Origin: Deltaproteobacteria bacterium
GTDB taxonomy: Bacteria; Myxococcota_A; JAADFL01
Length of the DNA stretch: 41,033 nucleotides
NCBI GenBank assembly: GCA_013152945.1
Contig: JAADFL010000092.1
Coordinates: 1 to 41,033 of the forward strand
Reading direction: 5' to 3'
Below the pieces are notes generated by a model. That model searched no databases. It was given only the letters and a program-made list of their open reading frames with translations, and was not told the DNA's origin. Every line of letters begins with the position of its first letter. Within the stretch, counting starts at the first letter, position 1. Below are positions 15,451 through 24,559 of the stretch, piece after piece. The position numbers and the translations under genes are program-made.

Positions 15451-15675
15451 TTTATTATTTTTTTTATTGCATGGTTGTCGGCACGGACTTTTATTGACAC
15501 GGACTTGACACCGCTATTTTCCTGCAATAGCTTTTTGTTTGAAAAGTGGAAGCAATCGCTTTAGTATTCAATCTTGGCAACAAGAGGTTCCCGGGATTTG
15601 GAATATTACAGTAGAAATGCCATTGCAAGGAAAGCATCGAGTGGAACGCAAAGACAGAAAAAAGGAGTTTTGAAA

Positions 15676-16506
15676 ATGAAGGTTTTAAGAGGTCACTTGT
15701 ATACTGTTACGATACGGGCAAGCTTATTTTTTGTTTTCATGTTGGCTGTCGCCTCGTGCGGCTCGGTTAGAAATTCAGGTGATACGGATACGGATGTAGA
15801 CACGGACACGGATACGGACACTGACACGGATATGGATACGGATACTGACACTGATACTGATACGGACACGGATACTACTCCAAAAGAACTTTCAATAAAA
15901 GATATACAGGACACCTCGAGCAAGGCGCACCCCAAGGAAGGCACGATAGTCAAGGTTAACGGCGTGGTAACAGTGGAGTCCGTGGTTTCAAAGGGACACA
16001 AGGCATATTTCATCGAGATGCCGAAAGGAGGGACTTACTCCGGAATATACGTATTCGGCGCATCCGATACACCCGATGTAACAAGGGGAGACGTTGTAAC
16101 AGTGACGGGAGAATACAAGGAGTTTTACGGTCGAACCGAGATAGATGCATCGAGTGTGGAAAAAACCGGCACTGATGCTGTTCCGGAAGCCGAAGTTGTT
16201 GTGCCTGCGGACGTTGCTACCACCGGATCAAAGTCCGAATCCTACGAGGGAGTCCTTGTCAAAGTTGAAAACGTCGAAGTAACAGAGACGCCTGTTATGG
16301 GATCGGACGGCAAGGACCATGGCGACTGGAGGGTGACCGGTGATCTGATTATCGGCCATTTATGGGATTATGCTTACAACAACAAGGATAAGGATCTACG
16401 CAAGGTGGGTGACAAGTTTGCTTCGATTACCGGGATCCTGGACTTTACCTTTGATGAATTTCGGCTTGAACCCAGGGATGACGCAGACCTTGACGGACCT
16501 AAATGA
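15676..16506 (+). CDS. OB-fold lipoprotein (YhcR-type) with Asp-Thr spacer
   Basis: A 276-residue exported lipoprotein. The lipobox AVASC (Cys28) is followed by an Asp-Thr tract (about 36-67) and then by two OB-like beta domains (about 70-160 and 165-270). The first has the pattern GTIVKVNGVVT, AYFIEM, GIYVFG, RGDVVTVTGEYKEFYGRTEI, which resembles the OB-fold modules found beside secreted nucleases and phosphatases such as Bacillus YhcR. No catalytic residues are visible. A nucleic-acid or nucleotide binding role on the cell surface is inferred from the fold and from the 5'-nucleotidase-like gene directly downstream. The ATG at 15676 has AAAGGAG upstream; a longer frame from 15574 would bury the signal peptide. 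Confidence 0.75.
   Translation: MKVLRGHLYTVTIRASLFFVFMLAVASCGSVRNSGDTDTDVDTDTDTDTDTDMDTDTDTDTDTDTDTTPKELSIKDIQDTSSKAHPKEGTIVKVNGVVTVESVVSKGHKAYFIEMPKGGTYSGIYVFGASDTPDVTRGDVVTVTGEYKEFYGRTEIDASSVEKTGTDAVPEAEVVVPADVATTGSKSESYEGVLVKVENVEVTETPVMGSDGKDHGDWRVTGDLIIGHLWDYAYNNKDKDLRKVGDKFASITGILDFTFDEFRLEPRDDADLDGPK
15781..15876 (+). repeat. Hexanucleotide tract encoding an Asp-Thr spacer
   Basis: Sixteen six-base units of GAYACN type (with GTA and ATG variants) encode residues 36-67 of the OB-fold lipoprotein. Placement directly after the lipidated Cys is the same as in the lipoproteins at 3453 and 6022. Confidence 0.9.
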
Positions 16507-16573
16507 TGCGGCAACGGGGTATGCTGGAAAAACATATTTCATTTCACCCTGTTTACTGCGGACAACTATTATC

Positions 16574-16692
16574 GACAGCTTCGTAAAAAGTCGGAGCATG
16601 AATCATGGATGTTATGATTTTAATTAGAAAGACTGTCAATAAGATCGAAACGTACTATTCTATGAAGCCCTGCCCGACCTTTTACAAAACCA
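16574..16692. mobile_element. 119-bp palindromic (MITE-like) dispersed element, copy 2
   Basis: This copy has the same length and layout as 8216-8334: left arm 16574-16607, 38-base centre, right arm 16646-16692. The right arm contains TTCTATGAAG, and its ATG at 16662 is the best start of the 5'-nucleotidase-like gene. The other in-frame ATGs (16605 and 16614) are also inside the element, and no ATG, GTG or TTG follows in frame before the lipobox. Confidence 0.7.
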
Positions 16693-18584
16693 TAATTGTT
16701 TCTTTTCTTGTAATAACACCAGGCCTGCTTTCTTCATGCCGAGAGGCGGGAGAACAGTACAACCTGGCCGGCCAGGATGTAAGGCTGACTATTATACATA
16801 CATCGGATATACACTCGAGAATATTGCCCTACTCGATGGAGCCCGCATATACCGATGTATCCCTGGGTCTGGATCCGAGGCTCGGACCGTACGGCGGGGC
16901 GGAACGCATAGCACAAATAGTAGATGAACAAAGAGCCAAGGCAGGCAGGTGTTTGTACGTGGATACAGGTGACGTGTTTCAGGGCGCTCCGGTATTCAAT
17001 AGGTACAAAGGTGCTGTGGAGGTTCAATTTCTGAGCCAGCTTGGTGTTGATGTAATGGTTGTAGGCAACGAATTCGACTTGGGAGTAAACAACCTGGCAG
17101 CCCAGATGAACCAGTACAAGAACTTTCCACTGCTCGCGGCCAACTATGTCTTTCCACCCACGTCAGAGGGATTGTCCAACCTGCGTAACCTTGTAGACCC
17201 GTACAAGGTCTTCGACATCGATGGCCTGCTGGTTGGAGTAATAGGCATGGGCGACATAGGTTCGATCACCAGCCTTGAGGATCGTAAGAATTCAAGCGGA
17301 TTCTTTGCCCTTGACACGTATCAGACCGTGCAGAATTACGTGGATCTGTTGAGGTCCAGGGTAAATCTCGTGATCGTAGCTTCACACATGGGTCTTCAAG
17401 ACGATATAGACATGATAAGACACACCAGGGACATAGACCTCGTGCTGGGAGGACATCTACACATAGTTCTGAATCCTCCCATGGTGCTGCCCAATGCAGA
17501 CGGAAAAAGCACCATTCTCATGCATTCCGGCGCTTTCGGCAAGTATGTGGGGCGTCTGGATCTTGTAATTAGAGTTTCAGCGCAAGGACCGGGCAAGAGC
17601 CGGGTACTTGCTTTCAAGCACAAGCTTTTCCCGGTGGAGCAATACTCTGCAATCGAAGGCATTACCGACCAGCAATCGTGTTACCAGGCCGGCGGCGACA
17701 AGTGGCTCCCTCCGTCAGGCTGGGATAAAGGGGCCTGCCTCGAAAGGAATGCTACCGACGGTGATATGCGAAGGCTTCTCGAATACTATAGCCTGGATAT
17801 GCTCAAAAAGGAAAACTATGACAGGCCTGTCGCCTTTGCGCTGGAAAAGCTGAAGCGTTTCGGCGCATCCGGAGGTGATTCTGCACTGGGAAATTTGGTG
17901 GCTGAATCACTTCAAAGACGGTACCTGGTCGAAACTGATTTCGGATTGACGAATTCCCTTGGAATAAGGACGGACATCGACCAGGGGCCGGTAACCGTGG
18001 AAGCCATGTACAACGTATTTCCATTCGAGAACACCATAGTATCAATGTTCCTGTCAGGATCAGAGATTCAGGAGATGTTGGACTTTGTTGCAAGGAAGAG
18101 TGCCGCCAGGGGCTGCTCGGCCCAGGCGCAGGTGTCCGGAGTTTGCTTTACCATGAACTGCGCCCTTGAAAAGGCCGAGGACATCAGGTTTCCAAAGAAC
18201 GGTGAACCATGCTTCGACAAAAAAGGAAACCCTTTAGGGACGCCGCTCGATCAAAGAGATACTTATGAAGTGGCTGTCAATGACTATATTGCCGGCGGAG
18301 GCAGTGGATTCCGGGTTCTAAAGGCGAATAACACCAAGGTATATACCGGGATTTCCATGCGGGATGCGGTCATAGACTATTTCAATAGTTTTCCCATGTG
18401 CGGTAAAGATAAAAACGGCGATGGGAAATACTCACTGGATGAACTCGAGAAACCTGTCCAGGACTGGATCCAGGCCCAGCCTGAAAGTCAGAGGGATCGA
18501 TTAATCGACGACATGGCGCATGTTCCTTGTGTAACCGGCAGGTCCGACGGCCGTATCAGGGCTGTTACATCAGCCAAGGAGTGA
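16662..18584 (+). CDS. 5'-nucleotidase (UshA/YhcR-like) lipoprotein, catalytic His missing
   Basis: A 640-residue exported protein with lipobox LLSSC (Cys26). Residues about 40-300 are a calcineurin-type metallophosphatase: HTSDIHS (Asp49, His51), DTGD (Asp104), SHMG (His242), GGHLH (His265, His267). The third block should read GNHE but reads GNEFDLG (Asn136-Glu137): the bridging Asn is kept and the catalytic His is absent. Residues about 370-590 are the 5'-nucleotidase C-terminal substrate domain (LGNLVAESL, NSLGIRTDI, VFPFEN, GGGSGF). An EF-hand-like DKNGDGKYSLDE loop lies near 590. The family hydrolyses nucleotides or cyclic nucleotides outside the cytoplasm; this copy may be slow, altered or only binding. 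ATGs at 16605 and 16614 are alternatives. It lies between two OB-fold lipoprotein genes. Confidence 0.82.
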   Translation: MKPCPTFYKTIIVSFLVITPGLLSSCREAGEQYNLAGQDVRLTIIHTSDIHSRILPYSMEPAYTDVSLGLDPRLGPYGGAERIAQIVDEQRAKAGRCLYVDTGDVFQGAPVFNRYKGAVEVQFLSQLGVDVMVVGNEFDLGVNNLAAQMNQYKNFPLLAANYVFPPTSEGLSNLRNLVDPYKVFDIDGLLVGVIGMGDIGSITSLEDRKNSSGFFALDTYQTVQNYVDLLRSRVNLVIVASHMGLQDDIDMIRHTRDIDLVLGGHLHIVLNPPMVLPNADGKSTILMHSGAFGKYVGRLDLVIRVSAQGPGKSRVLAFKHKLFPVEQYSAIEGITDQQSCYQAGGDKWLPPSGWDKGACLERNATDGDMRRLLEYYSLDMLKKENYDRPVAFALEKLKRFGASGGDSALGNLVAESLQRRYLVETDFGLTNSLGIRTDIDQGPVTVEAMYNVFPFENTIVSMFLSGSEIQEMLDFVARKSAARGCSAQAQVSGVCFTMNCALEKAEDIRFPKNGEPCFDKKGNPLGTPLDQRDTYEVAVNDYIAGGGSGFRVLKANNTKVYTGISMRDAVIDYFNSFPMCGKDKNGDGKYSLDELEKPVQDWIQAQPESQRDRLIDDMAHVPCVTGRSDGRIRAVTSAKE

Positions 18585-18589
18585 AGACC

Positions 18590-20023
18590 ATGTCCAGTCG
18601 AACAACAATATTGATCCTTACAACAATGCTTGTCTTGTCTTCGGGGTGCGAGGAGTCTCTGTTCAACGAAATAGACTCGCCTGATTCGAGCAAGCTCAAG
18701 GTACTTTCGTCGTTTGCAGTCACGCTTCAAAGGGATGGAGGCCTCGGAACCGATGATAAACCGCTCCCTGCAGGCAATGAACCGACAGCCTTCACCTTGT
18801 CGGCGGCCGCCCTGCTTACGGATGGTTCGGTGCTCACATCTTTTAACCGTAAAGTCGCGATATCCGTCGAGCCCGGCAAGCTTTCAGCAGATTCACCGAA
18901 AGAGGCGAAATTCGTCAACGGGATTCTCAAAGAAGTGAATGTTTCAGTTCTCCAGGCCTTTGGACCCACGAGGATATGGGTCGAAGACACATTGGGTACA
19001 AGCGGCAGCTATGTTACGGGCGTGAGCGAGGGAATAATATTCAGCCCGGCGACGATACAATCAGTCCAGGAGTGTGATCGTGACAATGATCCTGTCTGCA
19101 ACGGGAAATCACCCAATTTTTTCCCTTCTCCGCTGAGGGATAAGTTCGTCAAGATGTACAGAAGCCGAAAATGCGGAGATCTCGTGGTAACGAACGTTAC
19201 GTCCGAAGGCTTTTTCGTAACTGATACATCCCAGGGTGAGTGTCCCGGCGCCGGGAACCAGGAACATGCCTTTGGTCATATATATGTATACAACCATTCC
19301 AGGCCGGAAGGGTTGCAGCGTGGTGACCGTCTGTGGTCGCTGGCAGGAAATGTGAGCGAGTTCTTCGGCCTCACCGAATTGGGATTCCCGACCTGGGAAA
19401 AGAAACCTTGTAACGAGAGAGTGGAGGGAGATACCTGGTACGAATGCAGGGGCGTGGTATCGAACAGTTCGCCGGACAACCCGGAAGATTATGCAGGTGG
19501 CGGGGGATATGTCGATTGTCCGCCTGGAAAGAAATGCTGTCCTCCGGACGAAATGCTGTTGGATATGGAAACGCCGGAATGCTCCGGTTCTGTATGCTAT
19601 GAAGCCGAGTGTGTGCCGTTCAATTGCAAAGGAACATCCTGTGGGCCGGGACAGGTATGCATGAAAGGGCGCTGTGAGGACAATCCCTATCTGCCTCCAC
19701 CGGTAATAGTGGAACCATCCAGGGTAAAGTCTCACTGGGAAATGGAAAAGCTCGAGGGCGCACTTGTGAAAATCGAAAATGTTGTTATTCAGCCTATCGA
19801 TTCCTCTGATTACGATCAATATGGTCAATGGAAGGTGATGATGTCGGATGGAAAAACCAAGATCACAATCGTAAGCCGTGAAACGGTCCCGAGCTTTCAT
19901 CCCGAACAGGAAACAGGCGCCTGCATCGACATAACGGGAAATCTTCGTTTCCACAGTGTTCCAAGGTGGCTTATCTATCCGCGTGACGATGTGGACATAC
20001 AAGAGGCAAAGGGCTGTCAATAA
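18590..20023 (+). CDS. OB-fold lipoprotein with Cys-rich insert
   Basis: A 477-residue lipoprotein with lipobox LSSGC (Cys20). An Ig-like beta domain (about 30-140) is followed by a first OB-like domain (about 145-265: GDLVVTNVTSEGFFVTD, RGDRLWSLAGNVSEFFGLTEL) similar to the domain in the lipoprotein at 15676. A Cys-rich segment (about 290-370: CPPGKKCCPP, CKGTSCGPGQVC) comes next, then a second OB-like domain (about 380-470: EGALVKIENVVI, ITGNLRF, PRDDVDI). No catalytic site is seen. The ATG at 18590 follows AAGGAGTGAAGACC, five bases after the nucleotidase stop, so the genes are in one operon. It probably binds nucleic acid or nucleotides, or docks the nucleotidase (inference). Confidence 0.75.
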   Translation: MSSRTTILILTTMLVLSSGCEESLFNEIDSPDSSKLKVLSSFAVTLQRDGGLGTDDKPLPAGNEPTAFTLSAAALLTDGSVLTSFNRKVAISVEPGKLSADSPKEAKFVNGILKEVNVSVLQAFGPTRIWVEDTLGTSGSYVTGVSEGIIFSPATIQSVQECDRDNDPVCNGKSPNFFPSPLRDKFVKMYRSRKCGDLVVTNVTSEGFFVTDTSQGECPGAGNQEHAFGHIYVYNHSRPEGLQRGDRLWSLAGNVSEFFGLTELGFPTWEKKPCNERVEGDTWYECRGVVSNSSPDNPEDYAGGGGYVDCPPGKKCCPPDEMLLDMETPECSGSVCYEAECVPFNCKGTSCGPGQVCMKGRCEDNPYLPPPVIVEPSRVKSHWEMEKLEGALVKIENVVIQPIDSSDYDQYGQWKVMMSDGKTKITIVSRETVPSFHPEQETGACIDITGNLRFHSVPRWLIYPRDDVDIQEAKGCQ

Positions 20024-20042
20024 TCAGTAAGGGAGTTATCAA

Positions 20043-21593
20043 ATGCAGACTCGTCCCTTGACAAGAATGTGGATATTTTCGTTTTTTGTTCTGTGTTATT
20101 TCCTGCCGCACATGGCTGTTGCCGGCGACTTCATGGACGTGAGGCTTTCATTCAAGTTCTTTGATGACGATTTTCTCCATGATTCAAAGGACGGCAGCCC
20201 GGGTATAGAGTTCGGAAGGGACGATTACTTGCTGCCAAGCGAGGCCTTTGGGAGCAAGTACACGGGAAGGGAAACCCAGGCCAGGCTGGTTCTGTACAAG
20301 AAGCTCGATGATCTCTGGCCGCGTCTTGTTACGGAAGCCGCCATCGTGTTGCGTTACAACGTGTTCGTCCCGGAAAGTGGAAAGGCATCCAATGCCGCTG
20401 TTGGCGTGGAGGATGACGGCTCGTACATCAGAGTTGCATATGCTTTCGATGATAGTAAGAAACCGCCGAGCCTGGCATTGGTGTTGTTTCCGTTCAGCTC
20501 CGACCGGTTCAGGCTGGGATATACCTATGACATCACTTGGGGCGGTCCTGATGCCTTCATAGAGGCGCAACGGGTGAGGCCTACCACGGGAGCCAAGCTC
20601 GAATACAAGAATGGTGAGAACTATGCTTTTGTGGGAGCCAAGTCAACAGAGGTGAACGTCAAACGTATCGGCCAGGGAGAAATTTCCACACCCGAGGTCA
20701 GGTGGGGCGGCCTGGCAGGCGGCGGGTACGATATCCTTGATATGGTCTTGCTGGAAGCAGGATGCGGGTATTTCAACAGGGGTGCTTTCACGCGGGAAAA
20801 TCCGGTCATGGGCAAGCCCATGCATTCATGGGGAATATCCGCCCGGGCAACTTATCATCTTGGTCAAAAGGTAGGACTTCCGGTCGACTTCAGGTTGTAC
20901 AGGAACAACCCGGAGGCCATCGAAGAGGCTGTCAAACCTGAAAAGCAAGCGTCGTTCGGCCTGATGGCCGGAATAGAGTACACGCACTTGGAACAGGTCC
21001 TGATCGACCCGGTCGTGTCCGGCGGAACTTCATGGCAGCCGGCTAATGCAGGCAACATTTTCATGAGGTTGAGACTTTGGAATTTCAGGGTCACCCTGGA
21101 CATGGTCTATAGGGATGTGGCCTTCCTTCAGTTCGATCAACCCAGTTTCGAAACCGAAACCGACTTTCATCCGGACTTCAAGCTGAAGCCCGAGCTTTTT
21201 GCTGTGGCCGGCGTGGATTACCATTTCGAGAGCATTCATGTGACACCGGGTCTGCTCCTGTCATACCAGAGACCTGCCAGTGTAAGCCTTCCGTCATTGA
21301 AAACGGAAGGAATGCAACCAATCGAAAAACCCACCGTGGTCGTCAGAAACCGGGGTGATTGGGATATCCTTCCCGCCGGTGACAGTGTGACCGCCATCTT
21401 GTCCAGCAAGCTGACTCTCAAGGTGCAATTGTCGAGCATGCTCACGGTTCTTGCAGAAGCATATCTGGCTATAGACAACAACAAGACACGCTATACATTG
21501 AAAGGCGGTGATTCCAATCCGGCGACGTGGACCAGGATTTACCAGGATCCTTACATATTCGGAGCAGGAATTATCTTTTTCGCCAAATTTTGA
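20043..21593 (+). CDS. Outer-membrane beta-barrel protein
   Basis: A 516-residue exported protein. A Sec signal peptide (MQTRPLTRMW start, cleavage near AVAG at about 28) is followed by alternating amphipathic beta strands throughout. It ends in IFFAKF, with the C-terminal Phe typical of proteins inserted by the Bam complex. It resembles porin or carboxyl-gated channel architectures, but no subfamily is recognised. The ATG has GGGAG upstream and lies 19 bases after the OB-fold lipoprotein stop. As the last gene of the lipoprotein and nucleotidase operon, it may carry the breakdown products across the outer membrane (inference). Its 3' end overlaps the oppositely directed protease gene by 23 bases. 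Confidence 0.8.
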   Translation: MQTRPLTRMWIFSFFVLCYFLPHMAVAGDFMDVRLSFKFFDDDFLHDSKDGSPGIEFGRDDYLLPSEAFGSKYTGRETQARLVLYKKLDDLWPRLVTEAAIVLRYNVFVPESGKASNAAVGVEDDGSYIRVAYAFDDSKKPPSLALVLFPFSSDRFRLGYTYDITWGGPDAFIEAQRVRPTTGAKLEYKNGENYAFVGAKSTEVNVKRIGQGEISTPEVRWGGLAGGGYDILDMVLLEAGCGYFNRGAFTRENPVMGKPMHSWGISARATYHLGQKVGLPVDFRLYRNNPEAIEEAVKPEKQASFGLMAGIEYTHLEQVLIDPVVSGGTSWQPANAGNIFMRLRLWNFRVTLDMVYRDVAFLQFDQPSFETETDFHPDFKLKPELFAVAGVDYHFESIHVTPGLLLSYQRPASVSLPSLKTEGMQPIEKPTVVVRNRGDWDILPAGDSVTAILSSKLTLKVQLSSMLTVLAEAYLAIDNNKTRYTLKGGDSNPATWTRIYQDPYIFGAGIIFFAKF

Positions 21594-23670
21594 ACAATCC
21601 CAGGACCAGTCCGAAGAACAACAGTCCCGCAATGTTCGAAGAAGAATTACCGGCAGCGGAACATCCACTGCCTGAACCCGGATGAGAATCGGAATCTGTG
21701 TCCGTGTCCGCGTCCGTGTCTACATCGGTATCTCCACCAGCCTTCCTGCACACGTCGTTTTGACACATGAACCCGTTTGGACAAGCAATCATGTCGCATC
21801 TTCTGGTACAGACCTTGTCCATGCAAAGGCCGCTCTGGCATTCTGCACCATTGGAACAGGCCTGTCCGAAATCCTTGCCCCCGTTGGGAAGACAGAGATC
21901 GCCGCGGTAAGTGCTCTCGCATGTCCACGAATCAGGACAGCCCACCATCTCGCAAGACCTGGTGCAGAAGTTTTCGTTGTCCTTTGAATAACAGATGCCG
22001 GATTCACATTGCTGGTCTGAAAGACAGTTTTCTCCAAGCCCCTTCTTTTTCGGGCCTGTGTCCGTGCCCGTATCCGTATCCGTGTCCGTGTCCGTGTCCG
22101 TGTCGGCATCTGTATCCGCATCGGCATCTGTATCCATATCAACATCCGTATCAACATCCGTATCGACATCCGTATCAGCATCCCCTGATGCGTGAAAACA
22201 AAACTGGCCTGCAGATACCTTGACACAATCAAAGCCTGCCGGACAGCCTATCATGTCACACTTTTGGGAGCAGTATAAAAAGGCTCCATTGGCAATGCAC
22301 TCCCCGGTTTTGCAATCAATTGCCTTGGTGCATGATTCACCCAGTGACTTGTCACCACGCGGCAGGCAGTGCGCAGTATCAATGTCGAAACAAAACTGGT
22401 CCTTGGGGCAATCCGAGTCATTGTTACATGTCCTGAAGCACTTGTGATAATCGCAATAAAGGCCGTTTTCACAGTCGGATGTCGAATCACATGGTTCACC
22501 TTCCTTGGCCTTGGGACCGGTCGACGGATAACACGTGCCATCGTCTGAACCTGCAAACGGCCTGCATTCGTACCCTGCCGGGCACTTGTCGTTGGAGGCG
22601 GTGCAATTCATGCTGCAGAACTTGCCGTTCGTTGAACTGTTGCAGATGCCGCTGGCGCAGTCGGCACCAGAATCACAATCATCGCCGAAGGGCTTGTCAT
22701 GGTTTCCACTGTCAAACCAGCAGTAATACGATCCGCCGGGCGTACCGCACCTATATCCGTTTGGGCATGGATTCGAGGCTGAGCAGGATCTTGAACACAT
22801 GGACCGCTGGGCGTCGGCAATGCACTTTCCCGACTTGCATTGGTCATCGGAATAACATCTTTCTCCAAAATCGAGTTCAGTCGCCGGCTTGATGTAATTC
22901 CCGAGAAAATTCCAGTTGGGAGCCGTTTGTCCGTAATACGCGTACCGCACACAGGATTGTTCGGACGTGGAAGCAGTGCCCAGCACGGTTGGTTCGCCGT
23001 GTAACATATATAGAGCCGGGCCGCCGGAGTCGCCGGAGCAGATGCCGGTGGAACCCTTGCCGTTGACCTCGATGTATGCGCTGGGCATTGCCGTCACCTG
23101 TAATGTCGTCCAGTACCGGTATGTGTTTTGTTGTGCATTCGGGTTGGTTATTCCATAGCCCACGGCCTGAAGATAGTTGCCTGAAAGATCGAGACTCTCG
23201 GTATTTACGGCAAGCGGAGTCACCCATGTAGGCACGTCTTTCTGTAACAATACCACGGCCACATCGTGGTCACCCCACTGGCTGCCCGAGTAACTCGGGT
23301 TGGCATGCCACTCGGTGGCGCTCGATGACCAGCGGGCACTCGAATAATCTTCACCGATGAAGAAGGTAACATCCTGGATATTCGATTCCTTTACGCAATG
23401 GGACGCAGTGAGAACCACGTTGGCTCCGACGACCGTGCCGGTGCAGGCCGCGCCGTACCCGCCGCCCATGTACATCTGCAAGGCGCCGATAGCTGCCTTT
23501 TGTCCCTCCGTAAGCTGTACAACCGACGAGTCGAAGTTGGTCGAGCCGTTTACAATGGCACCTTGTTTCCAGGCCAACCTGCCTTGGTCCGGCCCGCAAG
23601 CCATGAAAAATGTAATGGCAGTTAGGGCTGAAAGCTTGATGAAGCGGGATTTGACTCTGTTTCTTTGCAT
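21571..23670 (-). CDS. Trypsin-fold serine protease with Cys-rich repeats, Asp-Thr spacers and MYXO-CTERM-like tail
   Basis: A 699-residue exported protein. The lipobox-like FFMAC (Cys25) is followed by IVNG (39-42), an activation-type N-terminus. The S1 protease triad is His91 (TASHC), Asp136 (HDVAVV) and Ser215 (GDSGGP). Residue 209, which sets specificity in chymotrypsin numbering (189), is Gly rather than Asp, so Arg/Lys cleavage is unlikely. Five or more Cys-rich modules follow (C.SD.QC.SG.C..., about 270-640), broken by a 42-residue Asp-Thr tract and a shorter one near the end. The tail is GSGCSAAG, a hydrophobic helix and WRKR, like the MYXO-CTERM sorting signal. ATG 23670 is chosen because GGAGG lies 10 bases upstream. 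The 22-base gap after the secreted-protein gene suggests co-transcription. Confidence 0.88.
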   Translation of the reverse strand: MQRNRVKSRFIKLSALTAITFFMACGPDQGRLAWKQGAIVNGSTNFDSSVVQLTEGQKAAIGALQMYMGGGYGAACTGTVVGANVVLTASHCVKESNIQDVTFFIGEDYSSARWSSSATEWHANPSYSGSQWGDHDVAVVLLQKDVPTWVTPLAVNTESLDLSGNYLQAVGYGITNPNAQQNTYRYWTTLQVTAMPSAYIEVNGKGSTGICSGDSGGPALYMLHGEPTVLGTASTSEQSCVRYAYYGQTAPNWNFLGNYIKPATELDFGERCYSDDQCKSGKCIADAQRSMCSRSCSASNPCPNGYRCGTPGGSYYCWFDSGNHDKPFGDDCDSGADCASGICNSSTNGKFCSMNCTASNDKCPAGYECRPFAGSDDGTCYPSTGPKAKEGEPCDSTSDCENGLYCDYHKCFRTCNNDSDCPKDQFCFDIDTAHCLPRGDKSLGESCTKAIDCKTGECIANGAFLYCSQKCDMIGCPAGFDCVKVSAGQFCFHASGDADTDVDTDVDTDVDMDTDADADTDADTDTDTDTDTDTGTDTGPKKKGLGENCLSDQQCESGICYSKDNENFCTRSCEMVGCPDSWTCESTYRGDLCLPNGGKDFGQACSNGAECQSGLCMDKVCTRRCDMIACPNGFMCQNDVCRKAGGDTDVDTDADTDTDSDSHPGSGSGCSAAGNSSSNIAGLLFFGLVLGLFKIWRKR
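22057..22182 (-). repeat. Hexanucleotide tract encoding Asp-Thr, in a protease linker
   Basis: Forty-two residues of Asp-Thr with Val, Ala and Met variants, between Cys-rich modules of the protease. A shorter related tract (GGDTDVDTDAD) lies just before the C-terminal sorting signal at about 21675-21735. Here the spacer is internal and not next to a lipid anchor. Confidence 0.9.
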
Positions 23671-23692
23671 TTTTGAGATTCCTCCATGAAAA

Positions 23693-24403
23693 CTAGTTAT
23701 TGTCTCTTGCTCTTGGTTTGTCACCAACCGCTTGCCTGACTTGGTTGATTAAATCTTCCAACTTCAATTCTGCAGGAGCCATCCTGTATCTATTCCCCTG
23801 AGGTGATACTTTTCCAACTGTGTACACGCCGTCATTATCTTTTTTATCGTCCCCGGCCGTGGTCGTTGATGCAGGAGATGATTTTGCAGGGGATGATATA
23901 AATATAGCGCCTGAAAGCTCGTGGATTGCAAAGAAATCGTTTGTGCCTGTGCTCTTTTTTTCAATCCGGTAGATTCCCTGCGCCATGCCTCTGGTGACAT
24001 AGACCGTGCTGTTTTTTTCCCGGGTTTCAATGTTTCGGATCTTTTTAAGGAAAAGGACATAGCTTTTACCGATTTCGAGTTTTCCACTGCCTGGAACAGC
24101 CATGCCGATCTTACCAAGAATCCCACCCAATTTTCTGACCAAAACAGGGCCGTCATGTATCTTGCCGGATATTACTTGTTTAACTTCAAGCCTGTAATCG
24201 GTATATATTCTTTTTTGATCCTTGCCCCAGAAACTTCGGGCGGTTTGTATACGGCAAATAACTACAGCGTCGGACCCCAGCACAAGATCCGCCAGGGTAA
24301 GTGGAATCATGACTGCCGCATTGCCTGCAGCAGATGAAATGAAAATTATTATGAATATTGCAGCCAGAGACCTGCGAATAACCTTGATTATTATTTCCAC
24401 CAT
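23693..24403 (-). CDS. Secreted protein of unknown function upstream of the protease
   Basis: A 236-residue protein with a signal peptide (basic start, hydrophobic stretch about 12-25, cleavage near AAGNAA). The mature part opens IPLTLADLVLGSDAVV and continues with a beta-rich segment (SFWGKDQKRIYTDYRLEV, VISGKIHDGPVLVRKLGG). Short secreted proteins with this 'LADLV..SD.VV' opening occur in myxobacteria (from memory), but I know no function. The C-terminal third has a Ser/Thr/Ala linker (SSPASTTTAGDD) and a charged helix. The ATG at 24403 follows AAAGGGCGCAACAAC; the frame extends to 24529 but would bury the signal peptide. It probably forms an operon with the protease and could be its partner or inhibitor (inference). 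Confidence 0.65.
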   Translation of the reverse strand: MVEIIIKVIRRSLAAIFIIIFISSAAGNAAVMIPLTLADLVLGSDAVVICRIQTARSFWGKDQKRIYTDYRLEVKQVISGKIHDGPVLVRKLGGILGKIGMAVPGSGKLEIGKSYVLFLKKIRNIETREKNSTVYVTRGMAQGIYRIEKKSTGTNDFFAIHELSGAIFISSPAKSSPASTTTAGDDKKDNDGVYTVGKVSPQGNRYRMAPAELKLEDLINQVRQAVGDKPRARDNN

Positions 24404-24559
24404 GTTGTTGCGCCCTTTCCTCTGGCAAAAGACTTGTAGAAAATATTCCCGCTTTTTTATGTGACGGTCAAGGTGTAAGAGGCGATTTTTAGGTGTATAT
24501 ACTACAGCGCTTAAAAAACATGCATCCAAAACCTGATTTTTTATGCTATTATTTGATAC

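Follow-up and report, generated by a model that had tools for sequence, protein, structure and literature searches.

A conserved three-gene set of Myxococcota encoding a nucleotidase-family lipoprotein, an OB-fold lipoprotein and a porin-like barrel: a candidate outer-membrane nucleotide salvage module

The window analyzed here (41,033 nucleotides) is the whole contig JAADFL010000092.1 (C92) of a 4.84-Mb genome from a Deltaproteobacteria bacterium (GCA_013152945.1; 218 contigs, 94% complete), the single genome of its class in our sample. Four open reading frames, all on the plus strand and separated by 98, 5 and 19 bases, encode in order a lipoprotein with a pair of OB domains (LP1), a lipoprotein of the 5'-nucleotidase family (NUC), a second lipoprotein with OB domains (LP3) and a porin-like outer-membrane barrel (BARREL). 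An earlier sequence-only reading of this DNA had put forward this order, with its coordinates and the 5- and 19-base gaps, and it agrees with the open reading frame list and the sequence. We report that NUC, LP3 and BARREL form a conserved core, and we propose, tentatively, that this core is an outer-membrane nucleotide salvage module.

The conservation of the neighborhood was explored in a sample of 377 Myxococcota genomes. A scan seeded with LP3 found a match in 118 of them and one seeded with BARREL in 128, and both were present in 116 genomes, versus 40 expected if the two were independent. The Fisher value for this co-occurrence (2.9e-80) is too strong because the genomes are related; the 116 shared among 118 and 128 are still plain. 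A first set of regions (L031-L070) came from 40 of the 117 other LP3-matching genomes, picked for spread over families, and all 40 carry NUC, LP3 and BARREL in order on the same strand. Since these regions had been picked on LP3, NUC was used as an independent seed, which gave a second set of 80 loci from named records (L071-L150); 14 contigs occur in both sets, so the two are not independent. Here LP3 lies downstream of NUC in 77/80 loci and BARREL in 68/80, and both are present in 61 of the 65 loci in which the sequence continues for at least 4 kb downstream. Of the four that fall short despite this room, L071 and L093 have LP3 without a barrel, and L126 and L134 have neither; in L126, another lipoprotein-like gene comes directly after NUC. 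On the strength of the intact loci and the excess of genomes with both LP3 and BARREL, a chance neighborhood was rejected. By record title, the hosts include Myxococcus, Corallococcus, Pyxidicoccus, Hyalangium, Nannocystis and Polyangium. A complete module was also found on a contig labeled Klebsiella pneumoniae (L137), a label that is probably wrong.

The conserved unit consists of three genes, NUC-LP3-BARREL, and not of the four named in the sequence-only reading. Neither of the two outcomes that would have refuted that reading, structure predictions lacking OB folds and a neighborhood not conserved among relatives, was observed. A second, LP1-like OB-pair lipoprotein, encoded either ahead of NUC or in between it and BARREL, occurs in 11/41 first-set loci including the window (10/40 relatives) and beside the module in 9/80 loci of the second set; since it adjoins the module in a minority of loci, LP1 is regarded as an accessory part. 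At the other end, the largest cluster of flanking genes, obtained by clustering without family annotation, covers 10/41 loci and is divergently transcribed, and for this reason the module is taken to end at BARREL. Among the clustered flanks of these 41 loci, recurring gene families are confined to single lineages.

NUC belongs to the UshA/CD73 family. Its family profile matches the Thermus 5'-nucleotidase 2z1a in the PDB with an E value of 6.8e-79 and animal 5'-nucleotidases with about 1e-65 to 1e-70, and the 5'-nucleotidases rank above NAD nucleotidase and cyclic-nucleotide phosphodiesterases. The nucleotidase-like lipoprotein that had been read from the sequence is upheld by both Pfam domains and by an invariant lipobox Cys. 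The window protein retains N450 and R455 on the phosphate side and F474 and Y561, which align with base-stacking aromatics; we assign these substrate-site roles via CD73. An internal ATG about 57 bases downstream may be an alternative start of NUC, giving a more usual signal peptide. GGSG, not GGDG, is found in all 121 members of the family (41/41 and 80/80), and GGDG is present in 2z1a, in a venom 5'-nucleotidase and in two paralogues of the window's own genome. We take the Asp of GGDG to be the ribose-contacting residue by CD73 numbering. The Ser is a family trait that may alter sugar recognition.

The OB domains anticipated in both lipoproteins were recovered, in LP1 by sequence match and in LP3 by predicted structure. 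Amino acids 94-205 of LP1 match the OB part of the NCBIfam ExeM/NucH model (NF033681) with an E value of 6.2e-16. LP3 has no Pfam match at E <= 0.01 and no curated family either. Its link by sequence to the ExeM/NucH type of OB domain runs through two relatives only (1.2e-7 and 0.0053) and through an hhalign alignment with LP1 that spans both OB domains (probability 98.7, 198 columns). The predicted structure of LP3 (mean predicted local distance difference test score, pLDDT, 79.6) places an Ig-like domain, matched best (Z about 10) by those of GH2 enzymes, ahead of two OB folds that match Ten1 and RPA14 chains in VIA alignments.

The expectation of a terminal beta-barrel gene was borne out when structure prediction was run. 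The model (pLDDT 83.1, 516 amino acids) is a single-chain, plug-less barrel of the porin type whose first strand starts at residue 31, and no plug domain of a TonB-dependent transporter (SusC type) lies ahead of that strand. The closest fold is maltoporin 1mpr_A (VIA Z 20.0, root mean square deviation 4.2, 350 aligned), and the OprD/Occ, MOMP, ScrY and AlgE barrels score below it (VIA Z 16-18). Pfam searches of the window protein returned nothing at E <= 0.01 and one weak match (Opacity, E 0.014); at the same threshold, 35 members of the family matched no porin family, with Phage_OMP found in 2/35. These models support the fold of BARREL, like the OB folds of LP3. Positions predicted to face inward, from strand alternation and without coordinates, include 11 conserved Lys/Arg and 6 conserved Asp/Glu, and the window has Gln at one further position, acidic in the family. 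The strongly conserved segment DRFRLGYxYDxSWGG, which follows strand 143-149, could be a constriction loop. Tandem pairs of barrel genes occur in the genomes G036, G066, G106, G163, G226 and G258 of family f19; in the region of G258 (L042) the tandem barrels adjoin one nucleotidase and LP3, and L043 is the region of G106.

The lipobox Cys is invariant among the aligned proteins, C45 in 24/24 NUC and C20 in 31/31 LP3, and Lys at +2 was seen in none of the 24 NUC or 31 LP3 proteins. In Myxococcus xanthus, according to the excerpted text of PMC3222651, Lys at +2 is found in 8/12 inner-membrane lipoproteins. By this rule the lack of Lys at +2 gives no sign of inner-membrane retention, and NUC and LP3 are likely anchored at the outer membrane. 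The same excerpt places MXAN2659 (a barrel, 17 peptides), MXAN2660 (a lipoprotein, 6 peptides) and the nucleotidases MXAN2470 and MXAN5361 in the outer-membrane fraction, and an excerpt of PMC9548883 describes MXAN_2661 as a hydrolase of vesicles that is upregulated during predation. The gene set would be matched by MXAN_2661-2659; identity with the module genes could not be shown, however, and these data were not used as evidence. MXAN5361 is unlikely to be the NUC of the module: the hsfBA operon lies at mxan_5362-5365 (PMC9109919, in excerpt), and inspection by eye of the surroundings of the L135 module turned up no recognizable hsfBA genes.

Table 1. Genes, domains and motifs of the four-gene region and adjoining features of the window.
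Feature	Position	Strand	Description
LP1	15676..16506	+	ATG at 15676, inside TTG-started open reading frame 15574-16506; lipoprotein with signal peptide, Cys, Asp-Thr repeat linker and OB pair
OB domain of LP1	15949..16161	+	amino acids 92-162; PF01336 E 4.1e-4, below the curated cut-off
NUC	16605..18584	+	lipoprotein of the UshA/CD73 5'-nucleotidase family; PF00149 and PF02872
NUC metallophosphoesterase domain (calcineurin-type)	16788..17465	+	amino acids 62-287; Metallophos PF00149 E 3.3e-9, over the cut-off
GN-E site of NUC	17064..17072	+	GGC AAC GAA; catalytic His codon of GNHE absent in frame
NUC 5_nucleotid_C substrate-binding domain	17868..18323	+	amino acids 422-573; PF02872 E 5.3e-30, over the cut-off
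GGSG motif of NUC	18297..18308	+	family-wide Ser versus Asp of GGDG in compared related nucleotidases
LP3	18590..20023	+	ATG at 18590, inside open reading frame 18527-20023; lipoprotein, Ig-like + OB + OB, without Pfam family
Ig-like domain of LP3	18698..19048	+	amino acids 37-153; VIA Z up to 10.2, rows e.g. 5euv_A, intimin 1f00
First OB domain of LP3	19049..19408	+	about amino acids 154-273; VIA p205 HIN 8idx_A Z 8.0, root mean square deviation 2.2, 79 aligned; hhalign to LP1
Second OB domain of LP3	19685..20020	+	amino acids 366-477; VIA 8d0b chain C (Ten1, human CST complex) Z 11.6, root mean square deviation 2.1, 94 aligned
BARREL	20043..21593	+	signal peptide and porin-like outer-membrane barrel, without plug domain, without Pfam family
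Trypsin-like protease gene	21571-23727	-	convergent; overlaps the end of the BARREL gene by 23 bases
Asp-Thr (DTDTD) repeat linkers	15783-15885; about 21670-22170		recurrent in secreted proteins of the contig
Secreted-looking protein	23693-24529	-	278 amino acids, no Pfam match

The protease encoded next to BARREL has Cys-rich repeats and Asp-Thr linkers, and its hydrophobic C-terminal tail, which ends in Arg/Lys, to our eyes resembles a MYXO-CTERM sorting tag. A scan for sigma-70-type promoters gave 6 sites versus 5.9 expected and was not informative.

Gene order, conservation, predicted folds and lipid-anchor motifs were obtained directly in this work; from these we infer the substrate of the module, the interactions of its parts, the direction of transport and the side of the membrane on which it acts. 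The reading that we prefer, at somewhat short of an even chance, is that the NUC-LP3-BARREL operon serves nucleotide salvage at the outer membrane. NUC, as a lipid-anchored phosphohydrolase of the UshA/CD73 type, would remove phosphate from nucleotides. LP3, together with LP1 where it is present, would use its lipid-anchored OB pair to hold the (oligo)nucleotide substrate or to dock NUC at the pore, and BARREL, as a porin that has the maltoporin/OprD fold and works without TonB, would pass nucleosides, phosphate or small nucleotides across the outer membrane. In favor of this reading we count the two nucleotidase domains and the substrate-site residues of NUC, the constancy of the gene set, the lack of Lys at +2, the OB folds of LP3, the porin fold of BARREL and the surplus of conserved Lys/Arg at its predicted inward positions, as well as the dependence of ExeM on its OB-containing region and the Endonuclease_1 protein with a lipobox in the window's genome, both described below.

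Several observations weigh against nucleotide salvage. The fold of BARREL cannot tell the specificity of the porin, and UshA-family enzymes also accept other phosphomonoesters. An OB fold alone is no proof of nucleic-acid binding, because OB folds also act as protein-protein domains, and Foldseek returned nothing at E <= 0.001 for the LP3 model. No nuclease domain was found in the four window proteins with Pfam and NCBIfam, no nuclease gene was recognized as recurring beside the module (the flanking genes being clustered, not annotated), and complete ExeM/NucH nucleases occur in 10/377 genomes, none of which has the module. Moreover, the window's NUC departs from the GNHE motif, and its relatives keep NHE or NHD in 40/40 and 80/80 cases.

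Because its catalytic His is missing, the window's NUC possibly does not hydrolyze, and the processing of nucleotides that the sequence-only reading ascribed to it is in doubt for this copy. The other metal-site motifs (DIH, GD, SHMG and GGHLH) are kept. The window's genome holds three further UshA-family genes, every one with GNHE, which judging by this motif could provide the activity, and its module may be limited to binding, may have an altered chemistry or may be decaying. Decay, in which the lost codon inactivates NUC before the rest drifts, or else an assembly or consensus error, is a possibility that we consider real, if doubtful. This judgment bears on the window copy and stands apart from those on the function of the module, with which it is not to be summed. 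It is favored by the occurrence of GN-E in the window alone among the compared proteins. Decay is opposed by the four intact frames and the retained metal-site motifs, which amount to no second lesion, and an artefact by the clean 3-base loss, which is atypical of assembly error.

General phosphorus scavenging is the strongest alternative for the function of the module, and we rate it as unlikely but worth serious attention. NUC would then act on UDP-sugars or on a variety of phosphomonoesters and set phosphate free, BARREL would be a porin for phosphate or anions, and the OB pairs of LP1 and LP3 would be enzyme-porin scaffolds that bind no nucleic acid. Ten1 and RPA14, the structural neighbors of the LP3 OB folds, work largely as protein partners, and the predicted inward positions of BARREL are richer in conserved Lys/Arg than in Asp/Glu. 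Both fit scavenging, as does the lack of a recognized nuclease gene recurring in the clustered flanks. According to the abstract of PMC8475336, 5'-nucleotidases are mostly broad in substrate, which also favors it. Against scavenging, NUC retains the residues aligned with base-stacking aromatics, and LP1 has its closest curated relatives in the OB parts of secreted nucleases.

The sequence-only reading had favored a surface device for extracellular DNA. In such a device the OB lipoproteins would catch DNA fragments produced by separate secreted nucleases, NUC would dephosphorylate the (deoxy)nucleotides and the porin would import the products. DNA capture by the module is possible, and several features suit it: the OB pairs of LP1 and LP3 are related to those of ExeM/NucH, and GGSG, falling at the position aligned with the CD73 Asp that we take to bind ribose, could favor deoxyribose. 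In one relative, a long OB-repeat lipoprotein with Lamin Tail Domains (L054:8172-11609, minus strand) adjoins the module. In excerpts of PMC6085458, the Lamin Tail Domain is the other non-catalytic domain of ExeM, and ExeM without its OB-containing region loses nearly all nuclease activity. The window's own genome also encodes, unlinked to the module, an Endonuclease_1 (EndA-type) protein with a lipobox (L157:1491-2639, on G000:C95), which on this motif is a possible surface nuclease. Endonuclease_NS had no match in this genome, and the search there for complete ExeM/NucH returned only the OB part of LP1. Nucleotide salvage is preferred over a DNA device because no nuclease is linked to the module, complete ExeM/NucH never occurs with it and the window's own genome lacks one. 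Nothing points directly to DNA as the substrate, and we consider the DNA device improbable. As material to be captured, nucleotides or other phosphomonoesters are as likely as extracellular DNA.

A more elaborate version, a surface machine for prey-derived deoxynucleotides, is more improbable still. The OB pairs would gather short DNA at the new porin, and NUC, with GGSG and a relaxed ribose recognition, would make deoxynucleosides from deoxynucleoside monophosphates; in the class-level lineage of the window, NUC would be a non-hydrolytic, nucleotide-binding component. Export or remodeling of an envelope polymer or glycan, through an AlgE-like barrel and a nucleotidase-like protein acting on a non-nucleotide phosphate ester, is very improbable. 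In its favor, Foldseek lists AlgE near the top of the matches to BARREL (E 5.2e-8); against it, VIA re-alignment ranks maltoporin and OprD-type porins over AlgE (Z 20.0 versus 17.0), and the recurring families of flanking genes are confined to single lineages.

Roughly one in three of the Myxococcota genomes sampled carries the core, with culturable Myxococcus, Corallococcus, Nannocystis and Polyangium among the hosts, and of its three proteins neither LP3 nor the porin belongs to a curated family. If nucleotide salvage is true, the module would help to account for the purines, pyrimidines and phosphorus that predatory bacteria regain from prey after lysis. The change to GGSG poses a concrete biochemical question.

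The literature search, which is thin on subscription journals, found no description of the three-gene set, the LP3 family or the porin family, in keeping with the earlier statement that no system with this gene set has been described; the excerpt of PMC2887360 gave nothing specific for the word nucleotidase. NUC shares with the UshA/CD73 family the Metallophos and 5_nucleotid_C domains, the D-x-H, GD, H and GHxH motifs and, in the substrate site, the N/R and aromatic residues. It differs in having GGSG in place of GGDG, a lipid anchor and an operon with LP3 and a porin, and the window copy also lacks the His of GNHE. With ExeM/NucH and Bacillus YhcR, the module shares an OB-pair region that is homologous to LP1 and more weakly to LP3, and YhcR also carries a nucleotidase domain. 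The OB and nucleotidase parts reside here in separate lipoproteins, but to describe the locus as a split YhcR overstates the likeness: both YhcR and ExeM have a nuclease domain, whereas none is linked here and a porin is added.

In Haemophilus, the porin OmpP2 has a role in nucleotide salvage. The enzymes of that pathway offer the likeness of logic: NadN, an UshA-family enzyme, and e(P4)/Hel, an outer-membrane-anchored phosphatase, convert nucleotides to nucleosides for uptake (PMC10694654, in excerpt). Unlike the module, they have no known OB lipoprotein and do not form one conserved operon. Maltoporin, ScrY and OprD/Occ have the overall barrel fold in common with BARREL (Z 16-20), with an identity of ~7-13%, and BARREL differs from them in having no Pfam porin match and in being genetically tied to a nucleotidase. 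The enzyme family, the OB pair of secreted nucleases and nucleotide salvage by outer-membrane-anchored and periplasmic phosphatases, as excerpted from PMC10694654 for Haemophilus, were already known; the conserved set of three genes and the families of LP3 and of the porin appear to be new.

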